The notes under the pieces: generated by a model
The model's input: only the letters and a program-made list of their open reading frames with translations
The model's database searches: none
Told to the model about the DNA's origin: nothing
Program-made: the position numbers and the translations under genes
Part shown: piece by piece, positions 34,365 through 63,864 of the stretch
How the letters are laid out: the number at the start of each line of letters is the position of its first letter
Numbering within the stretch: position 1 is the stretch's first letter
Source of the DNA: Methanothrix sp.
GTDB taxonomy: Archaea; Halobacteriota; Methanosarcinia; Methanotrichales; Methanotrichaceae
Direction of reading: 5' to 3'
Assembly: GCA_026394555.1 (NCBI GenBank)
Contig: JAPKXZ010000051.1
Span: 59,096-123,095 of the forward strand
DNA length: 64,000 nucleotides

Positions 34365-34781
34365 ATGAAGTTGATCGCGGCAATAGCCGTTTTAATTATG
34401 CTCATAATAGCCGTTACTTTCGCTCTCGGGGATATGACCGACTATCAGAGAGGAGTGGCCAATGGGCTGAAGATCGGACTGTTCATGGGCGAATATCATG
34501 GAAAAGGCCAGTACGTAATGGAATCTGCAGGACAGTTTAATACCTATCTGGAAAACTATAATAAGTTCATTTGGGCGTCTTTTGCCAACAACCAGAGCTT
34601 GATTAATGAGTTCATGCTCTCACCCATTGCTGTTGCGCGACGATCTTCAAGCACTGGAGTATTGAGACCGGATGCAAGCGGTAGAGTTCTTGGCTATCCG
34701 GCCGATTCTTACTTCACATGGATTGGGGCGGTTCCAGGAACGACACCCCTAAATCCAGGAGATGCGCTCCCCGGTGTGTAG
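34365..34781 (+). CDS. Secreted or membrane-anchored small protein, unknown
   Basis: 138 residues from ATG 34365; the ORF track starts at 34329, but the extra 12 residues contain cysteines ahead of a clear signal/anchor (MKLIAAIAVLIMLIIAVTFALG), so the later start is preferred. The remaining ~115 residues are polar: GVANGLKIGLFMGEYHGKGQYVMESAGQF suggests a small folded domain, and the end is Pro/Gly-rich (GTTPLNPGDALPGV). There are no known motifs. The following PerM-like gene starts within two bases, so they may be co-transcribed. Confidence 0.6.
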   Translation: MKLIAAIAVLIMLIIAVTFALGDMTDYQRGVANGLKIGLFMGEYHGKGQYVMESAGQFNTYLENYNKFIWASFANNQSLINEFMLSPIAVARRSSSTGVLRPDASGRVLGYPADSYFTWIGAVPGTTPLNPGDALPGV

Positions 34782-34782
34782 A

Positions 34783-35820
34783 ATGCAACTTGATCTGCCA
34801 ATACGTCTGGGCAAGAAAAATTGGCTGATAGTCTTCACATTAGCCCTTGCCATCCTGCTTTGTTACTACATCTGGCCGCTTCTCGACGGCCTGGTCCTGG
34901 GCCTCGTCTTCTCCTACGTGGGCCGACCGGTGCGTGATCTATTCGGAAAAAACCGGCGCATCGGTTCCTTGGCCGCCATCATCTGCATTGTCGTTCCGCT
35001 CTCTGCGATCTTTGCCTCGGGAGTTATCGAGACTTCAAACCAGATCAGGTGGCTGGAGAGCCACGAAAGGGAGATCGTCACCCTCATCTTTGAATTTGTC
35101 TCCCGGGTCCATATTCCGCAAGCGATATTCGATGAAATCTCGCGGGGCATGGCCAACCTGATGGGAATGGGCATCAATCTCTTAGCCAGCCTGCCCGTCT
35201 TCAGCCTGGGCTCAACCATAACCCTTGGCATTGTCAATTTCTTGATCGCATTTTGCGTCTGCTACTTTTTATTGCTTGATGCAGATCGAATCTCAGAAGC
35301 CGTAAGGGAGCTTTTCCATCTGGAAAACGACAGCTTTGAGTTGCGCTGCCTGGCCAGAATAGATAGCATTCTTTGCGGAGTTTACATGGGCAGCATCTAC
35401 ACCGCCATAGCGGGCGGGATTACCTCTGTGGCCATCTTTTACATATTTGCCGTTCCCCGGCCCTTTGCCATGGCCAGCATCGTCTTCTTGGCCGGTATGG
35501 TGCCTTTTCTCACCTGGCTGGTCTTCATACCCACGGCTGTAGGCAGGTACATTGAGATGGGGCCCATGGATGCCGCTCTCTTCTTCCTGGCCGCCTCGAT
35601 TCTGGTTCATATCGCGGAGCTGGTCATCCGGCCTTACATCGTCTACACCAAGTCCTCGCTGCATCCGCTACTGGTGCTGCTTGCCTTTCTGGGTGGAGGC
35701 CTTGTCGCCGGAATCTCCGGCTTCTTCTTGGCTCCGGCAATGGTTGGCGTGGTGACCGGTATCTTTCGGGTGATGAGGGAAGATCGGGCGAAAAGGAACA
35801 CGGAAATGCAAAATCCTTAG
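34783..35820 (+). CDS. AI-2E family (PerM/UPF0118) membrane protein
   Basis: A 345-residue membrane protein using ATG 34783, one base after the previous stop; the in-frame ATG 34762 would overlap that gene. Pattern: two to three N-terminal helices (FTLALAILLCYYIWPLLDGLVLGLVFSYVGRPV), a long soluble middle section (~75-130), then about five helices including GSIYTAIAGGITSVAIFYIFAVPRP and FLAGMVPFLTWLVFIPTAVG, a family-typical G..P..(G)....P loop. Family members export small molecules or ions (AI-2, Na+/H+), but archaeal ones are mostly uncharacterised; no substrate is implied here. Confidence 0.8.
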   Translation: MQLDLPIRLGKKNWLIVFTLALAILLCYYIWPLLDGLVLGLVFSYVGRPVRDLFGKNRRIGSLAAIICIVVPLSAIFASGVIETSNQIRWLESHEREIVTLIFEFVSRVHIPQAIFDEISRGMANLMGMGINLLASLPVFSLGSTITLGIVNFLIAFCVCYFLLLDADRISEAVRELFHLENDSFELRCLARIDSILCGVYMGSIYTAIAGGITSVAIFYIFAVPRPFAMASIVFLAGMVPFLTWLVFIPTAVGRYIEMGPMDAALFFLAASILVHIAELVIRPYIVYTKSSLHPLLVLLAFLGGGLVAGISGFFLAPAMVGVVTGIFRVMREDRAKRNTEMQNP

Positions 35821-36114: not shown

Positions 36115-36789
36115 ATGGAAAAATGGAGCCGCCTTTCCCTTGTTGCAGAAATGATCCGTGATCACATCTCCCTGGACGGAATCGACCGATATCTAGCCGA
36201 AACCGGGGTTCAAGGCTGCGATTTCGTGCTCGTGCAGCCCAGTGACTTTGCCGGAGAGATATTCGCTGTGGACGGCTCCAATGTCTCCATCTGCAACTGG
36301 TCGACTGCCAATGTGAACCTGATCCGGGCAGGCTATGCCGTCTACCGGGGAAGAGATTGGAAGCGCACGGTCATCACCTTTGACGATGTCTTCGTGGCCG
36401 ATGCGAAGTTATGCAGAAACATGTTCGACCCTTATCTGGAGCAATTCTTCGGCCTGAATGGAGTCGATCTCAAGGAATCGGATCTGGATCGACTCTCCAG
36501 CTACTATCGAGAGCTACAGGAGTATGTGGCCATAAATGAAGCCCTGGGTGAAGCCCATGCCGGAGACATCGTCCTTTACGACGGCAGCTTTGACGTCTTT
36601 GAACTCTTGAGGGATGCACTTGCCGTCATCTTTGCCCGAGCAGAGGAGAAGGGCGTCGCGCTTCTGGCCGTAGCCAAGTCCAGCTCCCTCTTTTGGGGTG
36701 AGGAGATCACGCTTCCCTTTGTGCAGCATACCAGCATGGCCGGCAGCCGGCTTACAGCCAGAATGAGATACATTTGGATTATGAATTAA
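36115..36789 (+). pseudogene. nurA: Truncated nurA (resident copy, 3' third missing)
   Basis: A 224-codon ORF whose first ~212 residues align along their length with the complete NurA at 39409: FAGEIFAVDGSN / FEGNIYAVDGSN (active-site Asp), LDRLSSYYRELQEYVA / LDRLSTYYRELQEYVA, GDIVLYDGSF / GDLVLYDGDF, HTSMAGSR / HTGYAGSR. After GSR (36750) similarity ends; the last 12 residues (LTARMRYIWIMN) are read-through into AT-rich DNA. The C-terminal third with the remaining NurA metal-site residues (the DAPPHV region of the full copy) is absent. GC-rich like the host. Probably the original nurA, cut by arrival of the AT-rich segment. A stable N-terminal fragment cannot be excluded. Confidence 0.8.
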
Positions 36790-36829
36790 AGGAAATATGA
36801 TAATTAAAATTTAGATAGGAGACTCCGAT

Positions 36830-39382
36830 ATGGGATTACTTGATTGGTTTAAAAAGCCCAGCAATAAAGTCACGGATATATCAACAAAATTAGAAAAAGC
36901 AATTTCGTATCCATCAACTCCTTCGGACCAATCGCGTTCTGGAGCCAGAGAATTTATATCATTTATTGAATCTCCTTTATTTAAAATCGTGGGTTCTTTT
37001 CAATTACAAGTTGATGGGTACAATGGTTGCGATGATTTTTTTATAACAGGAAAGCAAACAGAAAAATTGCCAGGTTTTGATCTTAGATCAAGACGCAAAT
37101 TTAAGCTACACTATCATGGATTTAACTGTTTTATAGTAGAGGCTAATAAAACGCTTTTTATTATTAGGCCGACTAGCAGTAATAAAATTAGTCTTGAACA
37201 TTCAGCACTTGAATCAATGCAAATTCTGGACTTAGACGAAAAATGTGCGATTTTATCCTCAGAAAACACATTAGCCTATCTTGATCTCAATACAGGTTTG
37301 GTTATGCTATATCAATTCAGTTGGCATCCATTTAGAATTGCAATTGGTAAGGAGTTTTGGTTGGTTAGCACAAGAGAGACTACTGAAGGTCCAGGAGAAC
37401 TTTATAGTTTTTCTCTAAAAGGAGAATACTTGTGGGGAATTCAATTTAGTGAGGAATTTGAAACTGCGTTTGGAACTATCAAGGCAACAGCATATCATTT
37501 ACTTATCTCAAGAGATGACAAGCATATTGTTGTTTCCACAATGGATCGAGTATATCGCCTAAATCATAATGGAACATTGATTTCTCGAATAGCACTCGCG
37601 GATTTACGTGAGGCCGAGATTAAAATAGAAGAAGCTAAACGCAGAGAGAATCTCCCCAAGAATCCGAAAACCAAAGAAGAGCTAATTCAAGTACGGGCTC
37701 ATGAGATGTCTGAACAGCTAGTAGGTGGAATGATAAGGGCCACCTCGCTTAATACTCCACTAGCAGGTTTTATTCTAGGTCCGATAATAGATAATATATT
37801 CATATTAGAAGATAAAGGTCGATTAACATCATGGAATTCCCAAGGTAATCTTGTTTGGGCTTATTCATTTAATGAATCTGGAAATTACATCGGACTCTTA
37901 GATGACTCTCTTGTTGTGTCCCTTAAAACAGGCAATATCTTTTGGCTTAACCAGCGAGGCGAGACTCTATTTTCTGCAAAGCTACCTAAGCAGGCAAAAG
38001 CTGTCTTCACAATTCCTGAGCAAGATAAATATTTGATTGCTTGCGAAGACGGACGCCGCTATGAATTAGATAGACAGACCAGCGAGTTAATTCAAGGCCC
38101 AGAGGGTGATAGAGACATGGAATTATTTATGTTCCAGGATCGAATCATATTCTACGACAATTATCTGTGGGCGACATCACCAGCTTCTCCCTGGCAAACA
38201 TATCAACCGAAGAAGACGGATCATGCGGCTCTAGCCGAAGGACTCTCTTCAGATGATTTTGCGCCGCAGGTAAAAATTTGTAAGGGATTTCAAAAAACGT
38301 CAATACTTAGCGATCTAAACGAATATCCATTTTATTACTATGCAATTGATAAGAAGAACCGACGTATATGCATAGGAAGAAGAAAGGCAGAACTCTCCAA
38401 AAAAGAGATGGAAATGCAGGAAAAACTTTCTAGGAATAACAGTTTTTCTACATGGAATGATGTGTTATGCTATGATTTTTCATCAAGGCTGCTATGGTCA
38501 ACTTCATTTCTATCTGAAATTACATCAATCGCAGTATCACCTGAGGGAGATGCAGTGTTTGTTGGGTTATGGGGCGAGGGGTTGGCTTATGACCCAGGAA
38601 AGCTTATTGTTTTGGACACAAATGGAAAGGAAAAACTCGCGTTAGTCACTGTGGCAAATCCTACTGCATTTAATTTTAAAAACCCAAATCAAGGAAAAAT
38701 GCATGTATTTCAAGGATCTTCATATTTGGTTCAACGTATAAATATAGGAAAATGGAAAATAGAACAAGATTCAAAATCCTGTGATTCAGAGACGTCTATG
38801 GATTATGGAGCGGGGTTAGACGAAGCCACTTTAGGTAATTACAAGATAATCCGAGTAGGTAAAAAGAGTTATCAAATAGCCTATAACGAAATGCAACGTG
38901 ATCTTAAAACTAGTGCAGCTATTTATGAAGCAGTATCTATTCCAAATTCAGATAACTTATTATTACGTATTGGAAATAAAACTGTTAGGGGTATCTCCCC
39001 TAGAATCGACACACTCTGGGAGATAAAGGCCAAAGGGAATATTAAGTCAATAACAATAGGCGACAACGGATTCTTAATTTTATCTAGAGAGGAAATAGTA
39101 TTTTGTAATTCAGATGGAACTACTAAATGGAGGTTGGGATGCCCCCCAAACTCAGAATACAACATTGCAGTCTGGTTGGAGATGCATAAATCGTTTTTCT
39201 GGGGAGCTGGAGATCGGAACTATTTCCAAATTTGCCTAATATCGTCAGACGGTCTAATAAAGAAGAGTCAATTATTCAAAGAAGTAACCATAGACTCTCG
39301 TTTTCCCAGTATAGACGTATTAGAGGATGAAACACTATTCGTTTTGAGAATGGCTGGATCAATAGTCAGTTATGAAATTTAA
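36830..39382 (+). CDS. Large propeller-like protein at the head of the acquired HerA-NurA cluster
   Basis: An 850-residue protein with no signal peptide or membrane helix. It begins MGLLDWFKKPSNK, a short amphipathic start. Much of the rest reads as PQQ/WD-like beta-propeller blades: repeated hydrophobic strand, Asp/Gly turn, Trp strand, for example LTSWNSQGNLVWAYSF, GNIFWLNQRGETLFSA, KYLIACEDGRRYELDRQT, VFCNSDGTTKWRLG. A Lys/Glu-rich helical insert occurs near 255-305. Low GC. It lies 26 bases ahead of nurA and reads in the same direction, so it is probably the first gene of the acquired operon. Function unknown; a scaffold or regulator for the HerA-NurA machine is inference from position only. 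Confidence 0.7.
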   Translation: MGLLDWFKKPSNKVTDISTKLEKAISYPSTPSDQSRSGAREFISFIESPLFKIVGSFQLQVDGYNGCDDFFITGKQTEKLPGFDLRSRRKFKLHYHGFNCFIVEANKTLFIIRPTSSNKISLEHSALESMQILDLDEKCAILSSENTLAYLDLNTGLVMLYQFSWHPFRIAIGKEFWLVSTRETTEGPGELYSFSLKGEYLWGIQFSEEFETAFGTIKATAYHLLISRDDKHIVVSTMDRVYRLNHNGTLISRIALADLREAEIKIEEAKRRENLPKNPKTKEELIQVRAHEMSEQLVGGMIRATSLNTPLAGFILGPIIDNIFILEDKGRLTSWNSQGNLVWAYSFNESGNYIGLLDDSLVVSLKTGNIFWLNQRGETLFSAKLPKQAKAVFTIPEQDKYLIACEDGRRYELDRQTSELIQGPEGDRDMELFMFQDRIIFYDNYLWATSPASPWQTYQPKKTDHAALAEGLSSDDFAPQVKICKGFQKTSILSDLNEYPFYYYAIDKKNRRICIGRRKAELSKKEMEMQEKLSRNNSFSTWNDVLCYDFSSRLLWSTSFLSEITSIAVSPEGDAVFVGLWGEGLAYDPGKLIVLDTNGKEKLALVTVANPTAFNFKNPNQGKMHVFQGSSYLVQRINIGKWKIEQDSKSCDSETSMDYGAGLDEATLGNYKIIRVGKKSYQIAYNEMQRDLKTSAAIYEAVSIPNSDNLLLRIGNKTVRGISPRIDTLWEIKAKGNIKSITIGDNGFLILSREEIVFCNSDGTTKWRLGCPPNSEYNIAVWLEMHKSFFWGAGDRNYFQICLISSDGLIKKSQLFKEVTIDSRFPSIDVLEDETLFVLRMAGSIVSYEI

Positions 39383-39408
39383 AATATTATAACAAATATG
39401 AGGTTAAG

Positions 39409-40446
39409 ATGATAGATAAGACTTCACTCGGAGCGATCGCCGAACAGGTTAAGAATTATCTCTTAATGGACAATATAACTCAATATTTTGAGGAAACTGG
39501 TGTTAAAGATATCGATTTTAAAAAGATAATTTTACACGATAAGTTTGAGGGAAATATTTATGCAGTGGATGGAAGCAATGGTGTTATTTTTGATCTGACA
39601 TCAGTTAGTTTCAACCTAATAAGAGCAGGATATGTTTCCTATATTGGGAAAAAATGGCAAAAGACCGTCCTTTTCGATAAAGTTTTTAAGGCAGATACTG
39701 AGCATTATATGTATCAGTTCGAAAATGACTTACGTAATAATTTTGATATTAATAGCAGTTTTATTTTAGCTAAAACAGAACTTGATCGACTTTCAACTTA
39801 CTATAGAGAACTCCAAGAGTATGTGGCGCTGTACGAAGCTATCTCTGAAGCGGAAACAGGAGACCTTGTGCTCTATGATGGGGATTTCGCATATTGGACG
39901 GATCCATTTAGAGAAGTCCTTAAGATCATATTCGACAAAGCAGAGGACAAAGATTTGGATTTGCTTGCGATCAGCAAATCTAGCACATTCTCATGGGGCA
40001 AAGGTTTTTCAAAGCCCTTTGTTCTTCATACCGGCTACGCTGGAAGTCGAATAATACCAAATAATCCATGGTATATAGAATTGAGTGGAAAAAATATAAA
40101 ACCAAAGCCAAAAGGTAAGAACTGGAAAGGAAAGATCTACGTAATAAAATTGCATCCAGATTCCGAATTTGTCTTCCGGCTTGATGCGCCGCCGCATGTT
40201 GCAAGCCGAATTGATAAGGCTTTAGGACATTTATCTATGTATTCAAGTTCGTCGGAATGCTTGGGTTATCCACATGCTCTATTTAGAGCGCACCGAGATC
40301 TAAGCATAAAAGACTTGGAAAGGGTGCATCTCAATAATCTTCTAATAGATGAATTAAGTGACAAAGGTGTAAATGACAAACACATCCGTAGCTCGTTAGA
40401 CTATCATACGATATTAGAAATGAAGCAAGGGAGGAGAATAATATGA
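39409..40446 (+). CDS. nurA: NurA 5'-3' nuclease
   Basis: A 345-residue full-length NurA. Metal-binding residues sit in YAVDGSNG (~52-58), the YDGDF motif (~163), and downstream in the conserved C-terminal region (FRLDAPPHVASRIDKALGHLS, SECLGYPHALFRAHRDL) with Asp and His. NurA works with the HerA ATPase as a hexamer-dimer machine that resects DNA ends for homologous recombination together with Mre11-Rad50. Its stop overlaps the herA start by four bases. AT-rich codon use differs from the truncated GC-rich nurA 2.6 kb upstream, so the two are not recent duplicates but different lineages (inference). Confidence 0.88.
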   Translation: MIDKTSLGAIAEQVKNYLLMDNITQYFEETGVKDIDFKKIILHDKFEGNIYAVDGSNGVIFDLTSVSFNLIRAGYVSYIGKKWQKTVLFDKVFKADTEHYMYQFENDLRNNFDINSSFILAKTELDRLSTYYRELQEYVALYEAISEAETGDLVLYDGDFAYWTDPFREVLKIIFDKAEDKDLDLLAISKSSTFSWGKGFSKPFVLHTGYAGSRIIPNNPWYIELSGKNIKPKPKGKNWKGKIYVIKLHPDSEFVFRLDAPPHVASRIDKALGHLSMYSSSSECLGYPHALFRAHRDLSIKDLERVHLNNLLIDELSDKGVNDKHIRSSLDYHTILEMKQGRRII

Positions 40447-42083
40447 AGGATTTCATTACGACGAATCAATTATCAATTATGGACGATGACGCAAGTTCGC
40501 ATGTATTAGAGAGAAAGACAATAGATAGAACCAAAACAACTACGTATAAAATTATATCAAAAGATGTTAGGGAATTTCATTTTATAATTCCGTATAACGA
40601 AAGGGTTGAACTGGGCCAAATATTCTCTATCAGAGATTACGGCGTGAAAGATGATGAAATTACGTTCCTGGCAAGGGTTACGGATATTAAACATGATTCC
40701 AATTATGAAGGAAAATGGGATACGGCACTTAAAGGGACGGAATTCTATGATGAGGACCAAATATTCAATAGGATCGTGGCTGAGCCGCTTGGGTGCATAA
40801 TATTTAATGAAAAAATTAACAAAAAAGAGTTCAAGAAATCAAAGACTATCCCATCAAAATTCTCGGAAGTAGAAAAGGCGAGCTTTGATGAATTTGAGTT
40901 TCTAACAGAAAAGATGGGGGACTTAGAAGTCGGGTATTTGAGGAATGGAAGTCAGGTTGTTGAAGAAATAGGAGTGAAGCTAAACAGTGAGATCATGGAT
41001 CATCACATGGGCGTTTTTGCGACTACCGGAATGGGAAAATCCAATTTCATGAAGGTCTTTGCGGCCTCATGTATGAAGAAAGCATCAATGGGTGAATCCA
41101 AGTTGGGTCTTCTTCTTGCAGATCCTCATGGGGAGTATCTTCTAGGAAGCGCCAAAAATAATACAAAAGGCTTACTTCATTTAGGAAAATATAGTGATGG
41201 TCTTATATGTTATTCCACTAATAAAAAAAATGCAGAAAAAAATGGAGAAGTCGAGGACTTAAAGATAGGATTAAGAGATATAAAGCCAACGGATATATTG
41301 CCACTAGTGGGGGAATGGAGGACTGCCCAAGTTGAAGCTATTGAATCTTTGGATTCGGAAATAACGAGCGATTGGTTGAAGAGCTTCAAAGAAGATGGAA
41401 AGTTGGTCATAAAAAATTTTGATCCCAGAACGATTAATGTCATTGAAAGAAGACTAAAAAGGCTTCTTGGATTCAGTTATATTGATGAGAAAATCTCAAG
41501 TATCGATAAAATCATTAAATCCCTCCAAGAAGGGAAAGTTGTTTTAATCGATATGCAAGGAATTAACGAAAGAGAAGAACTATTCCTTCTTTCGCTTCTT
41601 TCGCGCCATATTCTCGACAAATACAGAGAGGAGAGTCTGGATGAATGTAAAAAGATCTGCCTTATAACAATTGAAGAGGCACAGAGGGTCCTAGGTGGAA
41701 AGGATAGTAGTATATCTAGATTCGAAATTATAGCCAGAGAAGGAAGGAAGTTTGGTGTGGGCCTATGTGCAATAACTCAGCAACCTAAATTAGTTGACAA
41801 GCAGTTGTTATCTCAGTTCAATACATTAGTTGTAATGGGTCTTGGCGATAGAAATGATAGGAAATGCTTAGAGGAGTCTGCAAAACAAGATTTAACGACG
41901 CTTGATGTAGAAATACAGACGCTAGAAAAAGGCGAAGCAATAATAAGTACGCTCAAGGTACCTTTCCCCATTCCAGCCACCATCCATTTGTATGAAGATT
42001 ACATAGAGCAGTTGAAAAAGAAAGATCAGACAGATGGGAGTCCCGTTAGCAAAGCCAAAAAGCTAAGTCGACCACCTGATTGA
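40443..42083 (+). CDS. herA: HerA bipolar DNA-translocating ATPase
   Basis: A 546-residue protein of the FtsK-HerA superfamily. Residues ~30-125 form the HAS barrel. Walker A is TTGMGKSNF (~194-201); the Walker B region is CLITIEEAQRVLGG, the two acidic residues of the HerA type. The later REGRKFGVGLCAITQQPKLVDKQLLSQFNTLVVMGLGDRND is the sensor/arginine-finger region found in HerA. Role: hexameric motor that feeds DNA to NurA at break ends. Overlap with nurA upstream and a 21-base gap to mre11 place it in the operon. Codon use is AT-rich like nurA and mre11. Confidence 0.9.
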   Translation: MKDFITTNQLSIMDDDASSHVLERKTIDRTKTTTYKIISKDVREFHFIIPYNERVELGQIFSIRDYGVKDDEITFLARVTDIKHDSNYEGKWDTALKGTEFYDEDQIFNRIVAEPLGCIIFNEKINKKEFKKSKTIPSKFSEVEKASFDEFEFLTEKMGDLEVGYLRNGSQVVEEIGVKLNSEIMDHHMGVFATTGMGKSNFMKVFAASCMKKASMGESKLGLLLADPHGEYLLGSAKNNTKGLLHLGKYSDGLICYSTNKKNAEKNGEVEDLKIGLRDIKPTDILPLVGEWRTAQVEAIESLDSEITSDWLKSFKEDGKLVIKNFDPRTINVIERRLKRLLGFSYIDEKISSIDKIIKSLQEGKVVLIDMQGINEREELFLLSLLSRHILDKYREESLDECKKICLITIEEAQRVLGGKDSSISRFEIIAREGRKFGVGLCAITQQPKLVDKQLLSQFNTLVVMGLGDRNDRKCLEESAKQDLTTLDVEIQTLEKGEAIISTLKVPFPIPATIHLYEDYIEQLKKKDQTDGSPVSKAKKLSRPPD

Positions 42084-42104
42084 AGTTACGAGGTATTGAG
42101 AAGA

Positions 42105-43253
42105 ATGAGGATAATCCATATGGCAGATTCGCACCTAGGCTTTTCTGCCTACAATAAGGTCGATCAATTCGGGAGAAACATCATTGAAGAAAAAGTCTAT
42201 GAAGGCTTTAAGCAGACCATCGACAAGATAATTGATGACATACATCCCGATGCGATTATCCATGCGGGAGATGTCTTTCATCATGTAAGACCAAGAATAA
42301 GAACGCTATATGTATTTAAGAAAGAGATAGAAAAGCTAAATAGGAATAAGATCCCCACTATCATTATTAGTGGTAATCACGACGCTCCAAAGTCGTCATC
42401 AACCACTAGTCCGTTTTCTATCTTTGAAGGTCTAGAGCATATTCACATAGTACATAATAACGAGTATCAAGGCATCCCAATTGAAGACTACGTTTTTCAT
42501 TGTATACCATTTTGCCTTAATAATGACGCCTACTTAGACGAATTTAGCAAAATAAGACCTACCGGATCAGATGTTCTCGTTATGCATGGCCTTATCGAAT
42601 CAATAAGAGATAAGCGCCTTAGAACTGTTGGTGAACACGAACTTAGTGATAGCTTTCTGAAAAGATATTTTTCATATATCGCATTGGGACATTATCATAA
42701 TCAGGCCCAAGTTGCAGGGAATGCATGGTATAGTGGATCTATTGAATATTTTAATTTTGGCGAAGCATCCGATAGGAAAGGAATTCTTCAAGTTGACCTT
42801 GATACTCATAAAGTGGAACAAATAGATATAATATCCAAATATATGATTGATCATCCTCCAATAGACTGCAGTGGATTCTCCTCAAAGGAATTAGCAGAAA
42901 AACTCCTAAATTTATGCGATGAAGAAGAAATTAAAGATAAAATTATCAGGATAAATCTAGTAAATGTATCTAAAGCTGCGTTTAAGGGCATAGATCAATC
43001 AAACAAAGCAAAGCTTGGATCGTCTGCATTATTTTTAAAAATAAAAGTCGAATATATTGATGAAAAAGACAAGTATGATAAGCAATTGGATTCTACAAGG
43101 CTCGATGAAGCTTTTTCTAGGTTCCTTGACGAAGAATCACAAAAAGATCGTATACGCAAAGCAATAACTAATGATGTTGTTGCCTACGGGACAGATGTTA
43201 TGAAAAAGGCAGCTTCAGTGCATAACACAAGGAGTCTTAATGCTTCTGGATAG
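42105..43253 (+). CDS. mre11: Mre11 exo/endonuclease
   Basis: 382 residues from ATG 42105 (MRIIHMADSHLG); the ORF track uses TTG 42096, but GAGGT stands at proper distance only from the ATG. All phosphoesterase motifs are present: DSHLG, GDVFHHVRP, SGNHDAPK, VLVMHG, ALGHYHNQAQV. The C-terminal ~130 residues are the Rad50-binding part. Role: Mn-dependent nuclease that, with Rad50, opens and trims DNA breaks. It overlaps rad50 by 14 bases, so translation is coupled. AT-rich throughout. Confidence 0.92.
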   Translation: MRIIHMADSHLGFSAYNKVDQFGRNIIEEKVYEGFKQTIDKIIDDIHPDAIIHAGDVFHHVRPRIRTLYVFKKEIEKLNRNKIPTIIISGNHDAPKSSSTTSPFSIFEGLEHIHIVHNNEYQGIPIEDYVFHCIPFCLNNDAYLDEFSKIRPTGSDVLVMHGLIESIRDKRLRTVGEHELSDSFLKRYFSYIALGHYHNQAQVAGNAWYSGSIEYFNFGEASDRKGILQVDLDTHKVEQIDIISKYMIDHPPIDCSGFSSKELAEKLLNLCDEEEIKDKIIRINLVNVSKAAFKGIDQSNKAKLGSSALFLKIKVEYIDEKDKYDKQLDSTRLDEAFSRFLDEESQKDRIRKAITNDVVAYGTDVMKKAASVHNTRSLNASG

Positions 43254-46200
43254 GCTTATTTTGCGTAATTTCAAAAAATATAAACGTGCAACAATTGGTT
43301 TTCAAGAAGGACTGACAGGCATCATTGGGAGTAATGGCTCTGGAAAAAGCACAATAGTTGAAGCAATAGCATGGGCGCTATATGGCAACAAAGCATCTTC
43401 TATCAAAAGAGAGCTTATAAAAAACATTCATGCTAATGATAATGAACCTGTAGATGTAACTTTATGTCTTAGACAAGATAATAAAGATATAAAAATAATC
43501 AGGAGCATGAAGGGGAAGAATCTCAGTCCGGATGCGACGTTGTATTTAAACAATGATATAATATCTTCTGGAACACGAGATGTAGACCAGAAGTTAGAAG
43601 AAATTCTCAATATCAATTATCAGGACTTCATGAAGACCTTCTACGCCCGGCAAAAGGACCTGGACAATCTGCTCAAAGAGGGCGGAATGGGCAAGAGAGA
43701 ATATCTGCTCAAGCTCCTGGGCCTGGAAGACATCAAGGAGTATGCAATCGAGCTGATCAAGTCCGACCGCGCCACACTAGAGGAGCAAAAGAGCCGTCTG
43801 GCTGGAGCGCTGTCTGAGATTGGAGATGTATCTTCCCGGCTTGAGAAGGCTTTCCAGGACATTGCAGCAGAGAGAAAGGGCCTGGAGGAGGCAGAGGGGA
43901 ACCGGGCAATGCTGGCACAGGCCTATGAGCAAAGCCGACAGGAGCTGGAGGCCATTGCAGAGAAGATGCGCAGCCATGGCCTTTTAGCGGAACGGGCAAA
44001 GAGCCTGGAGTCTCAGGACAAGGAGATGAAAGAGACGATAAAAGCCGCAGAAAAACGGCTCTCTCTGATCGATGCCTCCAAAAAGAGGCTCTCTGATCTT
44101 GCGCCGATGCTTGAGAGGCTTGCCGCCGTAGGGGAAAGGCTTGAAATTTTGCAGCCCATGAGAGAAGTTTATGAGGAGACAGCGCGCCGCCTGGCCGCCC
44201 AGGAGGCAGCTATCCAGGGCGAGAGAAAAGCGCTCTCTCTAAGCCAGAGAAGGCTCCTGGAGCTGGACAAAGATGCCGCAATGCGAGAGGATCTCCTGCC
44301 CCGAGAAGAGGAGCATACAACGCTGCAGGCCAGGCTACTTTCCCTGGAGGATCTCCGGGATAAGCATAACGAGATGCAGGCCCGGCAAAAAGAGGAGGCC
44401 ATCCGAGAGCAAGCAATCGTAGCCAGCATCTCCCGCACGAAAACATTGATTGATGATCTCCACAAAGCTCATGCCAGGCGAGAAGAGATTGCATCCTGCC
44501 CGGAGGAAGAAAAGAGGCGCAAGAACCAGCAGGCGGAGCTTGTCCTGCAAAGGGAGCTACAAAAGGAACGGGACGGACTCCTGGCCAGAAGGAATGCTCT
44601 GGAAGAGCGCCTGGCCCGGTTGAAGGCCGAGGCTGCGGGAGCGCAGGCTGAGATGGAGGGCCTTGGCAAAATCGAGGAGAGGGAGGCGCAGCTACGCCGC
44701 CAGGATAAGGATCTGGATATGCTGGGCAGCGAGCTAGCCCTCGTTCTGGCAGATCTGAGAGGAAGCTACAAGGTAGAGGAGAGCGCCTTTGCCGAGGCGC
44801 AACGCTCTCTGAAAAAGGTCGCAGCGCTGGGGGCGGAAGGCCTCTGCCCTACCTGCGAGAGGCCGCTAGAGGACCAGCGCTATCTGCTCATCAATAAGTA
44901 TGAAAAATCCGCAACGCTCGCAAAAGCAGAGAAGGAGAAGCTTGCCGCCCTGATCGCTGGACAAACTGAGAAGATTGAGGGGGCGACCAGGTCTAGGAGC
45001 AGTCTGAGTTCGGCCTTCGATGAACTAAATGCCCAAAAAAGCCGCCGCTCGGCTTTGCAGGCCGATTTGAGGAATCTGACCTTGCAGATGCACGAGTCCC
45101 AAACCGAGCAGAAGGATCTCTCGGCTAAAATTGAGGGCCTCGGATTGGTCTGCTTCGAAGCCGGAAAGTTAGCCGAGGTTGAAGCGGCTCTAAAAGCTCT
45201 TGGACCTCTGATAACGGAATACGCCAGCCTTTCCCAGCGGCTTGAGGATCTGCCCGGCCTGGAACGCGAGATTGGCCTGCGGCAAAAAGAGCTGGCGGCT
45301 TTAAAGGAGCGACAGGAGCAGCTCCTGGGGCAGATAGAGGCACTGGGCTACGCCGAATCGGACTACATCAATGCCAGAGCGCGCTTGGCCATCCTCAAGC
45401 CGCTGCACGATCGTTTTCTTTCAATTTCGGAGCGGGCTGCGCAAATTCCCGCCCTAAAAGAGAGGATGAAAGGGCAAGAAAAGGAGATAGTGCGGCTCGA
45501 CCTTGTCTTGAGGGCTCTACAGATTTCGCAAAAAGAGCTGGGCTACAATTCGCAGGAGTACGAGGCTCTTTTTAAAGAGAAGAAAGACCTCGCTGCAGCG
45601 GAAAAGGAGAGCCAGAAGATTCGCCTGCTGGTCGCGGGCGAGATCGAGGAGAGAGAGAGGCTGGCAGCAGCCTTGGCCACGTTGGAAAAGCTCAACCTGG
45701 ATCTGAGCGAGTGCAGGCAGCGCCTCTTTGCTCTGGCATACAGCAGAGAGGAGCACGAGATGGCAAAAGCCCTTTTGGCGAGAGCCGAAGGAGAGCTGGA
45801 AGCGGCCAGGAAGGCCGTTTCAGAGCGGCAGGTGCAAATGGGCGTTTTGCTGGCCGCACGGGAGCGACATGCCCGGGAAGCGCAACGGAAGGAGGAGTTG
45901 GAGCGAACTGCCGCCCAGGTGGGCCTGAGAATGGAGGTTGTGGAGGTGACTCGCAGTCTGGTCAACAGCTTCATGGACCAGGTATTGATCCGAGTCAAGA
46001 ACGAGATCGCTCGCACCGCAGGAGAGATCTTGGAGGAGGTATCCGGCAAGTACAGTCGACTGTGTATCGATGACGACTTCAATATCCGAGTCGAGGACGG
46101 GGCCAACTACTATCCCATCTCCCGCTACTCAGGCGGCGAGATCGATATGATCGCCGTTTCCGTGCGCGTGGCCATCAGCGAGTACCTGATGCGCTTTGGA

Positions 46201-46419
46201 CCCGACGGAGAGAGCTACTCCTTCCTGATTTTGGACGAGGTCTTCGGCAGCCAGGACCAGGAGCACCGGGAGAAGATGATCCAGATGCTGAGAAGCCTGG
46301 AGGAGCGCTTTCCCCAGATCATCGCCATCAGCCACATCAGCGACGTGCAGGGGCAGTTCGACAACACGCTGCTGGTGGTGGAGGACGAGCAGGGCAACAG
46401 TAGAGTGGAGGCTCTTTAG
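43240..46419 (+). CDS. rad50: Rad50 ATPase (mosaic gene)
   Basis: A 1059-residue SMC-like ATPase. N-terminal Walker A GSNGSGKSTIVEAIAWALYG (~30-50); a long coiled coil rich in Glu/Lys/Arg/Leu; zinc hook CPTC (EGLCPTCERPL, ~538); return coil; C-terminal ABC signature SRYSGGEIDM, Walker B SFLILDEVFGSQD and the H-loop IIAISHISD. All parts are complete, so it should work. Odd: the first ~128 codons are AT-rich, as in mre11, whereas everything after FMKTFYARQKDLD is GC-rich with host-like codons. The gene is therefore a recombinant of a foreign 5' part and the resident 3' part. AAGGAG precedes the ATG. Confidence 0.93.
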   Translation: MLLDRLILRNFKKYKRATIGFQEGLTGIIGSNGSGKSTIVEAIAWALYGNKASSIKRELIKNIHANDNEPVDVTLCLRQDNKDIKIIRSMKGKNLSPDATLYLNNDIISSGTRDVDQKLEEILNINYQDFMKTFYARQKDLDNLLKEGGMGKREYLLKLLGLEDIKEYAIELIKSDRATLEEQKSRLAGALSEIGDVSSRLEKAFQDIAAERKGLEEAEGNRAMLAQAYEQSRQELEAIAEKMRSHGLLAERAKSLESQDKEMKETIKAAEKRLSLIDASKKRLSDLAPMLERLAAVGERLEILQPMREVYEETARRLAAQEAAIQGERKALSLSQRRLLELDKDAAMREDLLPREEEHTTLQARLLSLEDLRDKHNEMQARQKEEAIREQAIVASISRTKTLIDDLHKAHARREEIASCPEEEKRRKNQQAELVLQRELQKERDGLLARRNALEERLARLKAEAAGAQAEMEGLGKIEEREAQLRRQDKDLDMLGSELALVLADLRGSYKVEESAFAEAQRSLKKVAALGAEGLCPTCERPLEDQRYLLINKYEKSATLAKAEKEKLAALIAGQTEKIEGATRSRSSLSSAFDELNAQKSRRSALQADLRNLTLQMHESQTEQKDLSAKIEGLGLVCFEAGKLAEVEAALKALGPLITEYASLSQRLEDLPGLEREIGLRQKELAALKERQEQLLGQIEALGYAESDYINARARLAILKPLHDRFLSISERAAQIPALKERMKGQEKEIVRLDLVLRALQISQKELGYNSQEYEALFKEKKDLAAAEKESQKIRLLVAGEIEERERLAAALATLEKLNLDLSECRQRLFALAYSREEHEMAKALLARAEGELEAARKAVSERQVQMGVLLAARERHAREAQRKEELERTAAQVGLRMEVVEVTRSLVNSFMDQVLIRVKNEIARTAGEILEEVSGKYSRLCIDDDFNIRVEDGANYYPISRYSGGEIDMIAVSVRVAISEYLMRFGPDGESYSFLILDEVFGSQDQEHREKMIQMLRSLEERFPQIIAISHISDVQGQFDNTLLVVEDEQGNSRVEAL

Positions 46420-47861: not shown

Positions 47862-47970
47862 GAGTGAAACAGAGGGCTTTGCTCGGATGCACACTGTCCA
47901 GGCAACAGCCCTTTTTTTAAGCGCAATATCCTGCAACTTGCTGCGAGGGTGCTCCGCCGCTGTTTCACTC
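47862..47970. repeat. Perfect 11-bp inverted repeat enclosing a terminator
   Basis: GAGTGAAACAG (47862-47872) is exactly complementary to CTGTTTCACTC (47960-47970); with two mismatches the match extends to 16 bp. The right copy overlaps the 3' end of the DUF262 gene. The two arms enclose 87 bases. Confidence 0.55.
47873..47917 (+). terminator. Terminator after the esterase-like gene
   Basis: AGGGCT (47873-47878) pairs with AGCCCT (47907-47912), followed by a run of T. It sits 85 bases past the esterase stop. Confidence 0.5.
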
Positions 47971-49761
47971 ACTATAAATCTCACTGGCGCTCAGCTGTCT
48001 ACCTTCTGCCAGCAGCTTTGCTGCCTTAAGTACAAGTTCTGCACGTCTGCGGGTGAATGCCTCAAAATTTGCTGCAAGTTTTATGTTCTTTTCCAAATCC
48101 GATAGATTTTCATACCCACCGGTTTCAAGTTCTTTGATGGGTATTAGGTGCGACTGCAGACGCTCTGAAACGATAGTTTCTGTGGTCCATTTATACCGAT
48201 CTATCAGGTATTGCTTTGGGTCTTTCCTACCGATAACCGTGTTTGTCTTATCGTCGATGAGTGCGCAGTTCATAGCGAGAAAGCTGTTGATTCCAGCTCC
48301 TTTCAATAGAGCATCGGGATATATGTGGTGATAGTGCCGCCCTTCGATATTGTCAGCGTTGAGTTGCTTACCTGATGCGAAGTCGTGGGCTCCAAGGCGG
48401 CAAGCGACAGCTAACACACCACGACCACGAATTGTTGCTCGTTTGGGCCAATCGGCTGTTATTAGCTCTTCGACTTCTGCGAGACCTTGCTCTGAAAAGA
48501 TGGGTACATCTTCGATGCCATAATTTGAGCCATCCAGCTTGCATTCACTGAGAATTATTCGTTTTAATGCATTGAAATCGGCAAATGCGTGGGTGGCAGC
48601 TGAGTTTTCATAGCGCTCTGTGAAAAAGGCGTACCATAGGTACTTTTTTAGCAAAAGTTCGTCCTGTCCCATTTTGTCCCCTGATTCCGGAATATATGCA
48701 TACAGGGCAGCAATAACGGCTAGCACAGCATTTGTAGGAAGACGCTGCTTATCATAAATGCCTTGGCTCTCTAGGAAGATGGCCATTCGGTGCAGCCCAT
48801 TTTCCATTTTATCCCAGTTTTCCACCATGCGCCTCTTATCCATATCCCATGAGCCGCGCTGGTTCGGCAGATTACCTTGCAGAAGTGCAGAAGTCGTGAG
48901 AATTTGATCTGAGAGTGGCGAATACCTGATAATTTCGGGATATTTTCTGTTAAGATCTGCTTCGAGATCGTGAATGGATTGCTCCATCGCGCTCTCCACT
49001 TCTGCGACAATGATATCATAGGTTGAAAGTGGCTTGCTGTTGGTGTTCATGTTTATGAAAACGTTCAGGGCGACGGTCTTCTCGGTACAGGAGGGTAGTG
49101 AGAGATATGGAAGATTGTAATTGGCGACAATTGAACGAACGTCCTTGATCCGATCGCTTACTTGTTTTTTAAAATTATAGAACTGGCTTAGTTCCTCTTT
49201 TCCTTCATTTGGCTCAATGGGCTTTGTGGCTGCATCAATCCAGTTATCTATTTCGTTCTGAATGTCTTCTGGTCGCAGTAGGTCGGTTGGGATCATGCCC
49301 CTCTCAAGACATTGAGGTGGGCTATCACACCAAAGAGGATAACGATCGCCTCTTTTATCATAGTAGCGGCTTCGGCAAAACACGGAAAGGTCTTCGCGAT
49401 CTATGTCACCTTCGTATCGATCGAATTCCTTGAAATATATGAAGTATGTCTCATTCTCATAATTATTGTGAAATGTTCTCCATAAAGCAGTGAGTCGTTG
49501 TTGTCCGTCAAGCAGGTGCTCAAAGACGCGACCACCAACCCTTTCAGGAGCAGTACTTAGGAAACGCGATACAAACTTCTCTTGGTCACCGACTTCTAAG
49601 ACTAGAGTTATGCCTAACGGCAAGTTATGAATGACCATCTCGTTCAGACTGCAGATGCGATGTCGATCCCAAGCTTCAAATCGTTGAAAACGTGGGAGCT
49701 TGATCTCGCTGCGTTTTATCTTTCCGTACCATTCGTCAAGATTCCGGTTCCTAGCTTCCAT
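47965..49761 (-). CDS. GmrSD-like DUF262 protein with HNH-type C-terminal domain
   Basis: A 598-residue protein. The N-terminal ~150 residues are a DUF262 (GmrS-like, ParB-fold) domain: IKLPRFQRFEAWDRHRICSL and the hallmark DGQQRLTALWR (~85-95). The C-terminal part carries the DUF1524/HNH-like site GRHYHHIYPDALL...NCALIDDKTNTVIGRKDP, where His and Asn residues match the usual H..P...N...I pattern. Such proteins are modification-dependent restriction enzymes that cut phage DNA with glucosylated bases, or NTP-dependent nucleases of defence islands. Base composition is lower in GC than the flanking esterase and reductase genes, suggesting transfer. The motifs appear intact. It stands alone, with its own upstream AT-rich spacer (49762-49967). 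Confidence 0.8.
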   Translation of the reverse strand: MEARNRNLDEWYGKIKRSEIKLPRFQRFEAWDRHRICSLNEMVIHNLPLGITLVLEVGDQEKFVSRFLSTAPERVGGRVFEHLLDGQQRLTALWRTFHNNYENETYFIYFKEFDRYEGDIDREDLSVFCRSRYYDKRGDRYPLWCDSPPQCLERGMIPTDLLRPEDIQNEIDNWIDAATKPIEPNEGKEELSQFYNFKKQVSDRIKDVRSIVANYNLPYLSLPSCTEKTVALNVFINMNTNSKPLSTYDIIVAEVESAMEQSIHDLEADLNRKYPEIIRYSPLSDQILTTSALLQGNLPNQRGSWDMDKRRMVENWDKMENGLHRMAIFLESQGIYDKQRLPTNAVLAVIAALYAYIPESGDKMGQDELLLKKYLWYAFFTERYENSAATHAFADFNALKRIILSECKLDGSNYGIEDVPIFSEQGLAEVEELITADWPKRATIRGRGVLAVACRLGAHDFASGKQLNADNIEGRHYHHIYPDALLKGAGINSFLAMNCALIDDKTNTVIGRKDPKQYLIDRYKWTTETIVSERLQSHLIPIKELETGGYENLSDLEKNIKLAANFEAFTRRRAELVLKAAKLLAEGRQLSASEIYSE

Positions 49762-51370: not shown

Positions 51371-52132
51371 ATGGAAGAGGTACAAAGGTTAATGGACCAG
51401 TATGTCGCGTGGCTGAGAAGCAAAACCACACTCCGACAGGTAGATGACTGGATTGAAGTAACCACACCGTATCTCGACCGGAACAACGACTATCTTCAGA
51501 TATATGCCCGAAGACAGAACGGGAGCTATATCCTTACGGATGACGGTTATATCCTCGGCGAGTTAGAACTGTCAGGCTGCAAACTGGAGAGCCCGAAGAG
51601 ATTGGCTCTTCTTCAGATGACCTTAAACGGTTTCGGGGTGAAACAGGTCGATGGTGCTCTTGAGGTAAGAGCCTCAAAAGAGGATTTCCCGCTGCGCAAG
51701 CATAACCTTGTTCAAGCGATGTTAGCGGTAAACGACTTGTTTTATTTAGCCACGCCTATGGTGTCCAGTCTGTTCCTGGAAGATGTTGTCGCTTGGCTTG
51801 ATGAGAATGAAATTCGCTATACTCCCAATGTAAAGTTCACTGGAAAGAGCGGATATGATCACCTATTCGACTTTGTGATACCGAAATCAAAGAAGCAGCC
51901 TGAAAGGATTATCCAGGCAATCAACCGCCCGAGCCGAGATGAAGCCCAGGCGACGGCCTTCGCATGGTTTGATACCAAAGAGGTTCGATCACCTGAGTCC
52001 AGGGCCTACACCATATTGAACGATTCTGAGCGAGATATTCCACTAACTGTTATGGATGCTCTTCAAAGCTACGAAGTGAGACCAATACCTTGGAGCAAAA
52101 GGGATTTCGTGGTGGAGGAGTTGACGGCGTAA
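51371..52132 (+). CDS. DUF1828/DUF1829 domain protein
   Basis: A 253-residue soluble protein. The N-terminal part ([50 protein letters not shown]) matches my memory of DUF1828, and the C-terminal part ([40 protein letters not shown]) that of DUF1829. This pair is found in bacterial prophages and defence-rich loci, and the C-terminal part resembles a nuclease-like fold with conserved D/F/K residues, but no activity is established. Preceded by GGGGATCGAAGG. GC content is moderate, below that of neighbouring host genes, so horizontal origin is likely. It lies between the reductase and the NHEJ genes. Confidence 0.7.
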
Positions 52133-52640: not shown

Positions 52641-53474
52641 ATGCCCGATGTTGTGCAGCTTGCCGAGGAAAAGCCGGAAAAGACTCCAGATGGCCCTACT
52701 GCCGACGCTCCCCCCAGAACCACCTGGTCCGGCAGCCTGCGGATCGGTCTCGTAAACATCCCTGTCAAGGCCCTGCTCATGACAAAAGATGTGCGCATCA
52801 GCTTTCGCATGCTTCATCGGAGCTGCAAGACGCAAATCTCCTTCAAGCGTTTCTGCCAGGAGGGCGAGGAGGTCACGTTGGCCGATATCGTCTATGGCTA
52901 TCCTCTGGGAAAAGATCAGTACGCAGTACTGGAAAAAAAGGAGATCGAGGCTGCCAGGCCCGAATCGAAGAACACCATAGCTCTCGATCGTTTTGTGAAC
53001 TTCTTTGAGATCGATCCTCACTACTTCGAAAAAACCTATCTGCTTTTGCCGGATAAATCCGAGGAGGCCTACTCGCTTCTAAGAACCGTCATGGAGAAGA
53101 CGGCAAAGGCGGCCATCGGCCGGATTTCCCTTCGCTCGCGAGAGAGACCGGTCCTGGTCCACTACTACCGGCAGGCTGTGGTGGCCACCACTCTCCGCTA
53201 TCCGGAGGAGGTATTAGACCCAGTGAACTATCAGGCGATCAGAGATCTTCCACAGCCCCAGGAAAAGGAGCTGGAACTGGCCTTGGAGATCATAAAAAGC
53301 CTGAGCGGAGAATTGGACCTTTCTAGCTACCACGACCAGTACAAAGAGAGGATCGAGGCGCTGGTCAGGTCCAAGATGGCAGGGACCGTGGCGGTCCCGG
53401 AGAAGAAGAAGACAAGGCCCGCTGCCAAGAGCCTCATGGAGGCCCTGCGCCTGACCGCGGAGTCGTTGAAGTAA
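52641..53474 (+). CDS. ku: Ku-like DNA end-binding protein
   Basis: A 277-residue protein with the size and order of prokaryotic Ku: after a ~28-residue polar N-terminal extension comes TWSGSLRIGLVNIPVKAL, then ISFRMLHRSCKTQISFKRFC, YAVLEKKEIEAARPESKNTIALDRFVNFFEIDPHYFEKTYLLLPD, and IGRISLRSRERPVLVHYYRQAVVATTLRYPEEV, all standard Ku core segments. The C-terminus is Lys-rich (KKKTRPAAKSL), often used for DNA or ligase contact. Role: homodimeric ring binding broken DNA ends in non-homologous end joining and recruiting the ligase. Ku is rare in archaea, so it was probably acquired from bacteria. The ligase gene follows 272 bases downstream on the same strand. Confidence 0.92.
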   Translation: MPDVVQLAEEKPEKTPDGPTADAPPRTTWSGSLRIGLVNIPVKALLMTKDVRISFRMLHRSCKTQISFKRFCQEGEEVTLADIVYGYPLGKDQYAVLEKKEIEAARPESKNTIALDRFVNFFEIDPHYFEKTYLLLPDKSEEAYSLLRTVMEKTAKAAIGRISLRSRERPVLVHYYRQAVVATTLRYPEEVLDPVNYQAIRDLPQPQEKELELALEIIKSLSGELDLSSYHDQYKERIEALVRSKMAGTVAVPEKKKTRPAAKSLMEALRLTAESLK

Positions 53475-53746: not shown

Positions 53747-54685
53747 ATGAATCTCGTAAAGCCCATGCTCGCGGTCTCCGGTCAGCCCTTCAACTCGCCA
53801 GAATGGATCTATGAGCCCAAGATCGACGGCACTCGCTGCCTGGCGGAGGTTACCTCAAGCGGCGTGCGCCTCTACAATCGCAGGCTTTTCAATATCACAT
53901 ATCGCTATCCAGAGCTGGCTCTTGCCCTGGCCCGGGGGGCTTCCGGCTGCGTCCTGGATGGAGAGATTGCCGTCTTCTCGAATGGCCGGCCAAGCTTTGC
54001 GAAGCTTGCCGAGCGCGACCACCTGAGCGACAGGCTCGCCATAGACTACCTCGCCCGCGTCCTTCCAGCCAGCTATGTTGTCTTTGATATCCTCTTCGCC
54101 AAAGAGATGAGCGTCATGGGTCTACCTCTTCGCGAGCGAAAGCAGATTTTAAGAGAAGAGCTGCAAGAGAGCGAGGCCGTAAGCATCGCCGACTCATTTC
54201 CGGAAAAGGGTGAGGACTATTTTCAGGCGGCACAAAAGATGGGACTCGAAGGAATCGTAGCCAAGAGGCTGAACTCCGTCTATGAGCCGGGCACAAGAAG
54301 CCCCGACTGGATAAAGATCAAGAAAAGCATCAAGCTCGATCTGGTGATCGGAGGCTACATTCCAGGAAAGGGAGGGCGCGTTTCTTACTTTGGCGGCCTT
54401 CTCCTGGGCGCCTACCACCACAGCCTGCTGCATTACGTTGGTCGGGTCGGATCAGGATTTACTGACAAAGAGCTGGAAGAGATTGCCGCAGGCTTTTCGC
54501 CCCTGGACAGTTCTCCCTTCACCAATGAACCGGCAACGCCCGAGGTAAGATGGGTCAAACCCTTACAAGTAGTGCAGGTCTCTGCCCTGGAGGTCACGTT
54601 GGACGGCCACCTTCGCGCACCGGTATACCTGCGTACCAGAGATGACAAAGAGCCGCAAGAATGCACACTGGATCAGCTCAATTGA
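53747..54685 (+). CDS. ATP-dependent DNA ligase, LigD ligase-domain type
   Basis: A 312-residue ligase holding only the catalytic core. Motif I with the adenylated Lys is YEPKIDGTR (K25). Motif III-like YVVFDILFA, motif IV GLEGIVAKRL, and motif V WIKIKKSIKLDLVIGGY follow, and then the OB-fold (YFGGLLLGAYHHSLLHYVGRVGSGF, ending with EVTLDGHLRAPVYLRTRDDK). This is the bacterial LigD ligase module without the polymerase or phosphoesterase domains, much shorter than the archaeal replicative ligase (~560). Together with Ku it forms a minimal end-joining pair. No polymerase gene is in the window. ATG 53747 is preceded by ACGAGGTGC. Confidence 0.92.
   Translation: MNLVKPMLAVSGQPFNSPEWIYEPKIDGTRCLAEVTSSGVRLYNRRLFNITYRYPELALALARGASGCVLDGEIAVFSNGRPSFAKLAERDHLSDRLAIDYLARVLPASYVVFDILFAKEMSVMGLPLRERKQILREELQESEAVSIADSFPEKGEDYFQAAQKMGLEGIVAKRLNSVYEPGTRSPDWIKIKKSIKLDLVIGGYIPGKGGRVSYFGGLLLGAYHHSLLHYVGRVGSGFTDKELEEIAAGFSPLDSSPFTNEPATPEVRWVKPLQVVQVSALEVTLDGHLRAPVYLRTRDDKEPQECTLDQLN

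Positions 54686-60645: not shown

Positions 60646-63864
<3,219 letters not shown>

Follow-up and report, generated by a model that had tools for sequence, protein, structure and literature searches.

The window analysed here (64,000 nucleotides of Methanothrix sp., contig JAPKXZ010000051.1 of assembly GCA_026394555.1; the genome is called G000 below) contains a row of plus-strand genes that begins with an AI-2E family permease (34762–35820; PF01594, E 1.4e-34), the left neighbour of nurA in intact Methanothrix loci. It is followed by the 5′ stump of a GC-rich resident nurA (36115–36753) and then by a foreign AT-rich block (36754–43595, ~37% GC, range 36–38%). In this block, an 850-codon gene that we call PROP (36830–39382) precedes donor-type genes for an intact NurA (39409–40446; PF09376, E 1.2e-10; DGSN, YDG and GYPHALFRAH motifs), HerA (40443–42083; PF01935, E 1.2e-22; Walker A GMGKS, with Walker B read from the translation as ITIEEAQ) and Mre11 (42096–43253; PF00149, E 6.8e-14; all phosphoesterase motifs), and the block ends with the first 118 codons of a donor-type rad50, including Walker A (43240–43595). 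From codon 119 onward rad50 is resident (43596–46419) and carries the zinc hook CPTC, SGGE and Walker B. Operons of nurA, herA, mre11 and rad50, which encode the HerA–NurA end-resection machinery, are well known in archaea (PMC2288612, PMC12977600), and the present locus has the same four adjacent, co-directional genes, with catalytic motifs kept in the foreign NurA, HerA and Mre11 and in the chimeric Rad50; it differs in being mostly foreign, in having an extra orphan gene in front and in ending with a chimeric rad50. Farther along the window there are a GmrSD_N/DUF262 gene (47965–49761, minus strand) and a PDC-M24B (DUF1828/DUF1829) candidate defence gene (51371–52132, plus strand), with GGR between them, and neither of the two was found in the flanks of the compared relatives. 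An NHEJ-like pair of Ku (52641–53474) and ATP-dependent DNA ligase (53747–54685) genes lies ~6 kb from the resection operon, as a Ku/ligase pair also lies near the nurA–rad50 locus in the Methanothrix genomes G013 and G009, and a Type IIG restriction enzyme-methyltransferase-like gene occupies 60646–63864.

Both edges of the foreign block fall inside resident genes. On the left, the stump (codons 1–213 of ~339) has 91% DNA identity to the intact nurA of the near relative G021; this homology ends at 36753 (codon ~213), and the open reading frame of the stump continues to 36789 within foreign sequence. The join is non-homologous, and the stump is presumably dead, since it is without the C-terminal GYPHALFRAH motif. 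On the right, the donor-type part of rad50 (GC3 0.05–0.55) has 37–72% DNA identity to the resident rad50 genes of G021, G020 and G001, and at ~43595 identity to resident rad50 rises from 45% to 90–95% while GC3 rises from ~0.25 to 0.70; the stretch 43600–43719 is 90–95% identical to G021, with GC3 0.70. No part of rad50 is more conserved than codons ~118–160, where this junction falls; the frame is kept, leaving a Rad50 that is chimeric but complete. GC3 is 0.30–0.36 in the foreign block and 0.65–0.69 in resident sequence. These observations establish that a foreign block of PROP, nurA, herA, mre11 and rad50 codons 1–118 overwrote the resident nurA–herA–mre11–rad50 operon, replacing the nurA 3′ end, herA, mre11 and the rad50 5′ end, and they bear out the original prediction that PROP sits in an acquired segment, resident homology ending at 36753 and returning at ~43595. 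The overwritten operon itself, with its broken nurA (36115–36789) and chimeric rad50, was absent from that prediction and is a stronger story than PROP. The locus is laid out as homology-facilitated illegitimate recombination would leave it: one homologous join, one non-homologous join and a displaced gene left as a remnant.

We were aware that AT-rich DNA of another organism could have been joined to a Methanothrix contig during assembly or binning, and the G000 assembly does consist of 75 contigs. Such an artefact is scarcely credible and largely refuted, because the joins fall inside genes with the rad50 frame kept, and because two other genomes show the same architecture: G004, which is 99% complete in two contigs, and G024, whose block is of a different donor type. 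The G004 block is of the same type as that of G000 (NurA 82%, HerA 82% and Mre11 77–78% identity), yet resident nurA is cut there at codon ~201 and the 3′ part of rad50 is G004's own resident sequence, which argues for an independent event rather than an assembly error.

The usual layout in the genus is the AI-2E permease, then nurA–herA–mre11–rad50 (mostly GC 0.51–0.60), then EreA and/or GGR, and the near relatives G021, G010 and G001 have retained the resident operon after the permease. Among 26 Methanothrix genomes compared, the nurA–rad50 locus was resolved in 18, and five of these 18, counted at this locus alone, carry AT-rich replacements, which represent at least three donor types and at least four species besides G000. 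G024 holds a complete block of its other donor type and still shows remains of the resident nurA and of the resident rad50; in G007 the breakpoint lies within herA; and in G013 (99% complete) AddB–AddA genes (L150, 426–7085; GC 0.40–0.43) stand at the place of nurA–herA and, with an inverted mre11–rad50, fill the interval between the AI-2E permease and GGR. Like NurA–HerA, the AddAB (RexAB) helicase-nuclease acts in end resection, but it is of bacterial type; elsewhere in the genus AddB was absent save for a weak match in G020, and it was not found in G000. In phylogenetic trees the G000 and G004 proteins group together (100%) outside the resident Methanothrix clade, and Mre11 of G007 groups with that of G013 (100/99), also away from the resident clade. 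The resident nurA stumps of G000 and G004 share 63% protein identity and their rad50 3′ parts 52%, so these are not sister species, and together with the different cuts in nurA this makes independent acquisition of the two blocks the simplest reading of the sequences. The permease and GGR flanks have no such foreign composition, and the exchange was therefore local. Site-specific insertion was ruled out by the differing left cuts (nurA codons ~213, ~201 and ~138, and herA in G007). We also noted a DDE transposase (DUF4277) gene directly downstream of the chimeric rad50 in G004 (L056, 16156–17769), and in G020, on contig C3, a second, partial nurA-like frame at the contig start (L057, 2–619) as well as genes that by eye resemble type I restriction-modification. 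We found neither nurA nor mre11 in G022 (96% complete), whose assembly is interrupted to the left and right of the nurA–rad50 locus (contigs C131 and C112); the locus is perhaps another replaced or strain-variable copy.

The PROP open reading frame runs from an ATG at 36830 to a stop at 39382 and is open throughout. It has a GC content of 0.37, compared with 0.54–0.60 in the flanking resident genes, with values at the three codon positions (0.45/0.38/0.30) that resemble those of coding DNA; the frame is genuine coding sequence. The nurA start at 39409 leaves a gap of 26 bases on the same strand. Size, coordinates, composition and distance to nurA thus agree with the original prediction, as does the absence of a signal peptide: the highest 19-residue hydrophobic window has a mean of only 1.37, from which we also conclude that the protein, predicted to be cytosolic, is without a membrane helix. 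Synonymous codon use in PROP correlates at 0.86 with the rest of the AT-rich block, compared with 0.19 for resident rad50 and r = 0.12–0.31 for host genes, so PROP arrived with the block or from a similar source.

The PROP product is an orphan in which an N-terminal helical stretch probably precedes two tandem beta-propellers, a propeller assignment drawn from weak sequence matches at the level of single blades. Profile searches matched residues 327–407 to DUF5711 (E 1.5e-4) and residues 544–606 to the EML propeller (E 1.3e-3), both below the curated cut-offs, and residues 692–769 matched a designed propeller among PDB sequences (E 1e-5). In several places PROP also resembles, weakly and at blade level, PQQ-like and WD40-like propeller proteins, including those of relatives. 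No curated family profile was matched above its cut-off, and lag autocorrelation for internal repeats gave no excess over shuffled sequences. AlphaFold2 models built without an alignment reached pLDDT values of only 36.6 (whole protein) and 41.9 (residues 488–850), too low to be informative; the strand pattern in these low-pLDDT models would fit two propellers, and Foldseek with the model of the C-terminal half returned mostly beta-propellers at the top of its list, with no E value below 0.001. The propeller reading, first proposed from a recurrent Trp/Asp-Gly pattern, is thus weakly supported, by blade-family profile matches below cut-off.

We found no full-length homologue of PROP in 238 genomes of the class or 394 of the phylum, in the genomes of relatives, in scans for close relatives across an 84,980-species genome collection and viral collections, or in plasmids and phages; PHROGs, NCBIfam, PADLOC and PDB sequences gave blade-level matches at most, and the class-wide relatives retrieved with PROP are other propellers rather than orthologues. 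The proposal that homologues might repeatedly precede nurA–herA was not upheld by a neighbourhood survey, in which PROP was absent from 38 named Methanotrichaceae nurA loci with flanks of up to 10 kb and from the class and phylum genomes (nurA itself was detectable in 71 of 388 phylum-sample genomes). The usual Methanotrichaceae arrangement has no extra partner ahead of nurA; the genes preceding it differ between genera, those identified being AI-2E permease, rad50 or herA genes and a gene that we take to be ThiC-like. G000, with PROP, and G004, with a remnant, depart from this arrangement.

In a plain BLASTN comparison of the G004 block with the window the alignment begins at 39398. In G004 the stump of resident nurA is separated from the foreign nurA by a 160-bp spacer, 63 bp of which resemble PROP at 38799–38861 of the window (plus strand, ~codons 657–677). 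The match has 44/63 DNA identities in the same frame, a score reached by 0/500 dinucleotide shuffles and by none of the control pieces of the G004 block, and at the protein level 10/24 residues are identical (0/5000 shuffles equal this). Compared with the 155 long frames of the window, the remnant scores 55 with PROP and 39 with the next best; the G024 spacer and right junction gave no PROP match. Short as the remnant is, a PROP homologue thus preceded nurA in both blocks of the G000/G004 type, and its in-frame position before nurA in an independently acquired block indicates that the linkage predates G000; the linkage is real but narrow. All four resection genes of G004 are open although PROP has decayed, which suggests that PROP is dispensable to them and not an obligate scaffold.

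The functional link that the original prediction had read from gene position therefore fares unevenly, the linkage to nurA recurring in G004 while four intact genes do without PROP. We regard as doubtful the possibility that PROP belongs to the donor machine as a genuine accessory subunit or regulator (a scaffold, clamp or sensor) and was transferred with the other genes because the operon functions as a whole: the 26-bp gap, shared strand and matching codon use are consistent with it, as are the linkage to nurA in the independently acquired G004 block and the intact frame in G000, but PROP was lost in G004 with its four partner genes retained, occurs at none of the 38 other family nurA loci and has no homologue in the 394 phylum genomes. 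We give appreciable weight, if somewhat short of even chances, to PROP being a pure hitch-hiker, an unrelated gene that stood ahead of nurA on the chromosome of the donor; its decay in G004, its absence from all other nurA loci and the variability of upstream genes among Methanotrichaceae genera fit this, whereas both acquisitions took PROP sequence though nothing would select for an unrelated gene, and G000 retains the full-length frame. The 850 fully open codons argue against simple decay in G000, where PROP may remain functional.

A defence module using the HerA–NurA motor had also been proposed. In the form considered here the whole block would serve defence, PROP sensing and HerA–NurA/Mre11–Rad50 acting as effector, in the manner of SIR2–HerA or DUF4297–HerA. 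The GmrSD_N/DUF262 and PDC-M24B genes near the block are of defence type, and HerA matches PADLOC HerA profiles and shares its translocase family with the HerA anti-phage systems (SIR2–HerA, DUF4297–HerA, Mads). It reaches 48 bits, however, where the anti-phage HerA cut-off is 800 bits, PADLOC assigns nothing to PROP or NurA, no known effector is present, and the genes, mre11 and rad50 included, are allelic to a housekeeping repair operon. We consider the module very unlikely and see no support for PROP acting in defence.

We think it fairly probable that PROP is an orphan accessory or passenger of a foreign resection operon that displaced the resident one and integrated through rad50-anchored recombination. 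The incoming operon would have recombined within conserved rad50, with the left join made illegitimately within nurA. Sequential displacement of Vibrio cholerae T6SS effector-immunity modules has been proposed to occur by homology-facilitated illegitimate recombination (PMC5361080), and that system shares with ours one conserved anchor, one non-homologous join and remnants of the old locus; unlike it, core archaeal DNA repair genes are displaced here, and the recombination route is read from the anatomy of the locus. NurA, HerA and Mre11 of this cell would then all be donor-derived and would carry out end resection with the chimeric Rad50, the donor genes being transcribed, we presume, from the resident nurA promoter. 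PROP would most likely be a protein-binding scaffold and not a needed part of the HerA–NurA motor. A search for the donor among viral contigs, plasmids and phages found no record with the NurA, HerA or Mre11 of the block. It is a good deal less likely, and in our judgement improbable, that PROP is a new propeller subunit or regulator of HerA–NurA/Mre11–Rad50 carried in mobile, swappable cassettes that circulate among Methanothrix because the resident machine is attacked by viruses or plasmids.

HerA–NurA and Mre11–Rad50 are usually regarded as core archaeal repair genes, essential in some thermophiles, and the limited, open-access literature that we searched yielded neither a propeller partner nor repeated replacement of nurA–herA–mre11–rad50. 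The recurrent operon swapping suggests a pressure for change even on repair machinery this basic. The phage protein gp5.9 blocks RecBCD and not the orthologous AddAB (PMC9836394), so exchanging the machine can allow escape from an inhibitor, and the Methanothrix locus may have been swapped again and again to escape virus- or plasmid-coded inhibitors of end resection, although antagonism as the driver is something we infer purely by analogy. That a single locus has been replaced wholesale several times within a genus, on one occasion by AddAB, suggests that end resection in these archaea either meets antagonistic pressure, as RecBCD does in bacteria, or is far more replaceable than its core status implies. 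Both ideas can be tested in the related species, which differ naturally in the alleles of an entire resection machine and in whether the propeller gene accompanies it.
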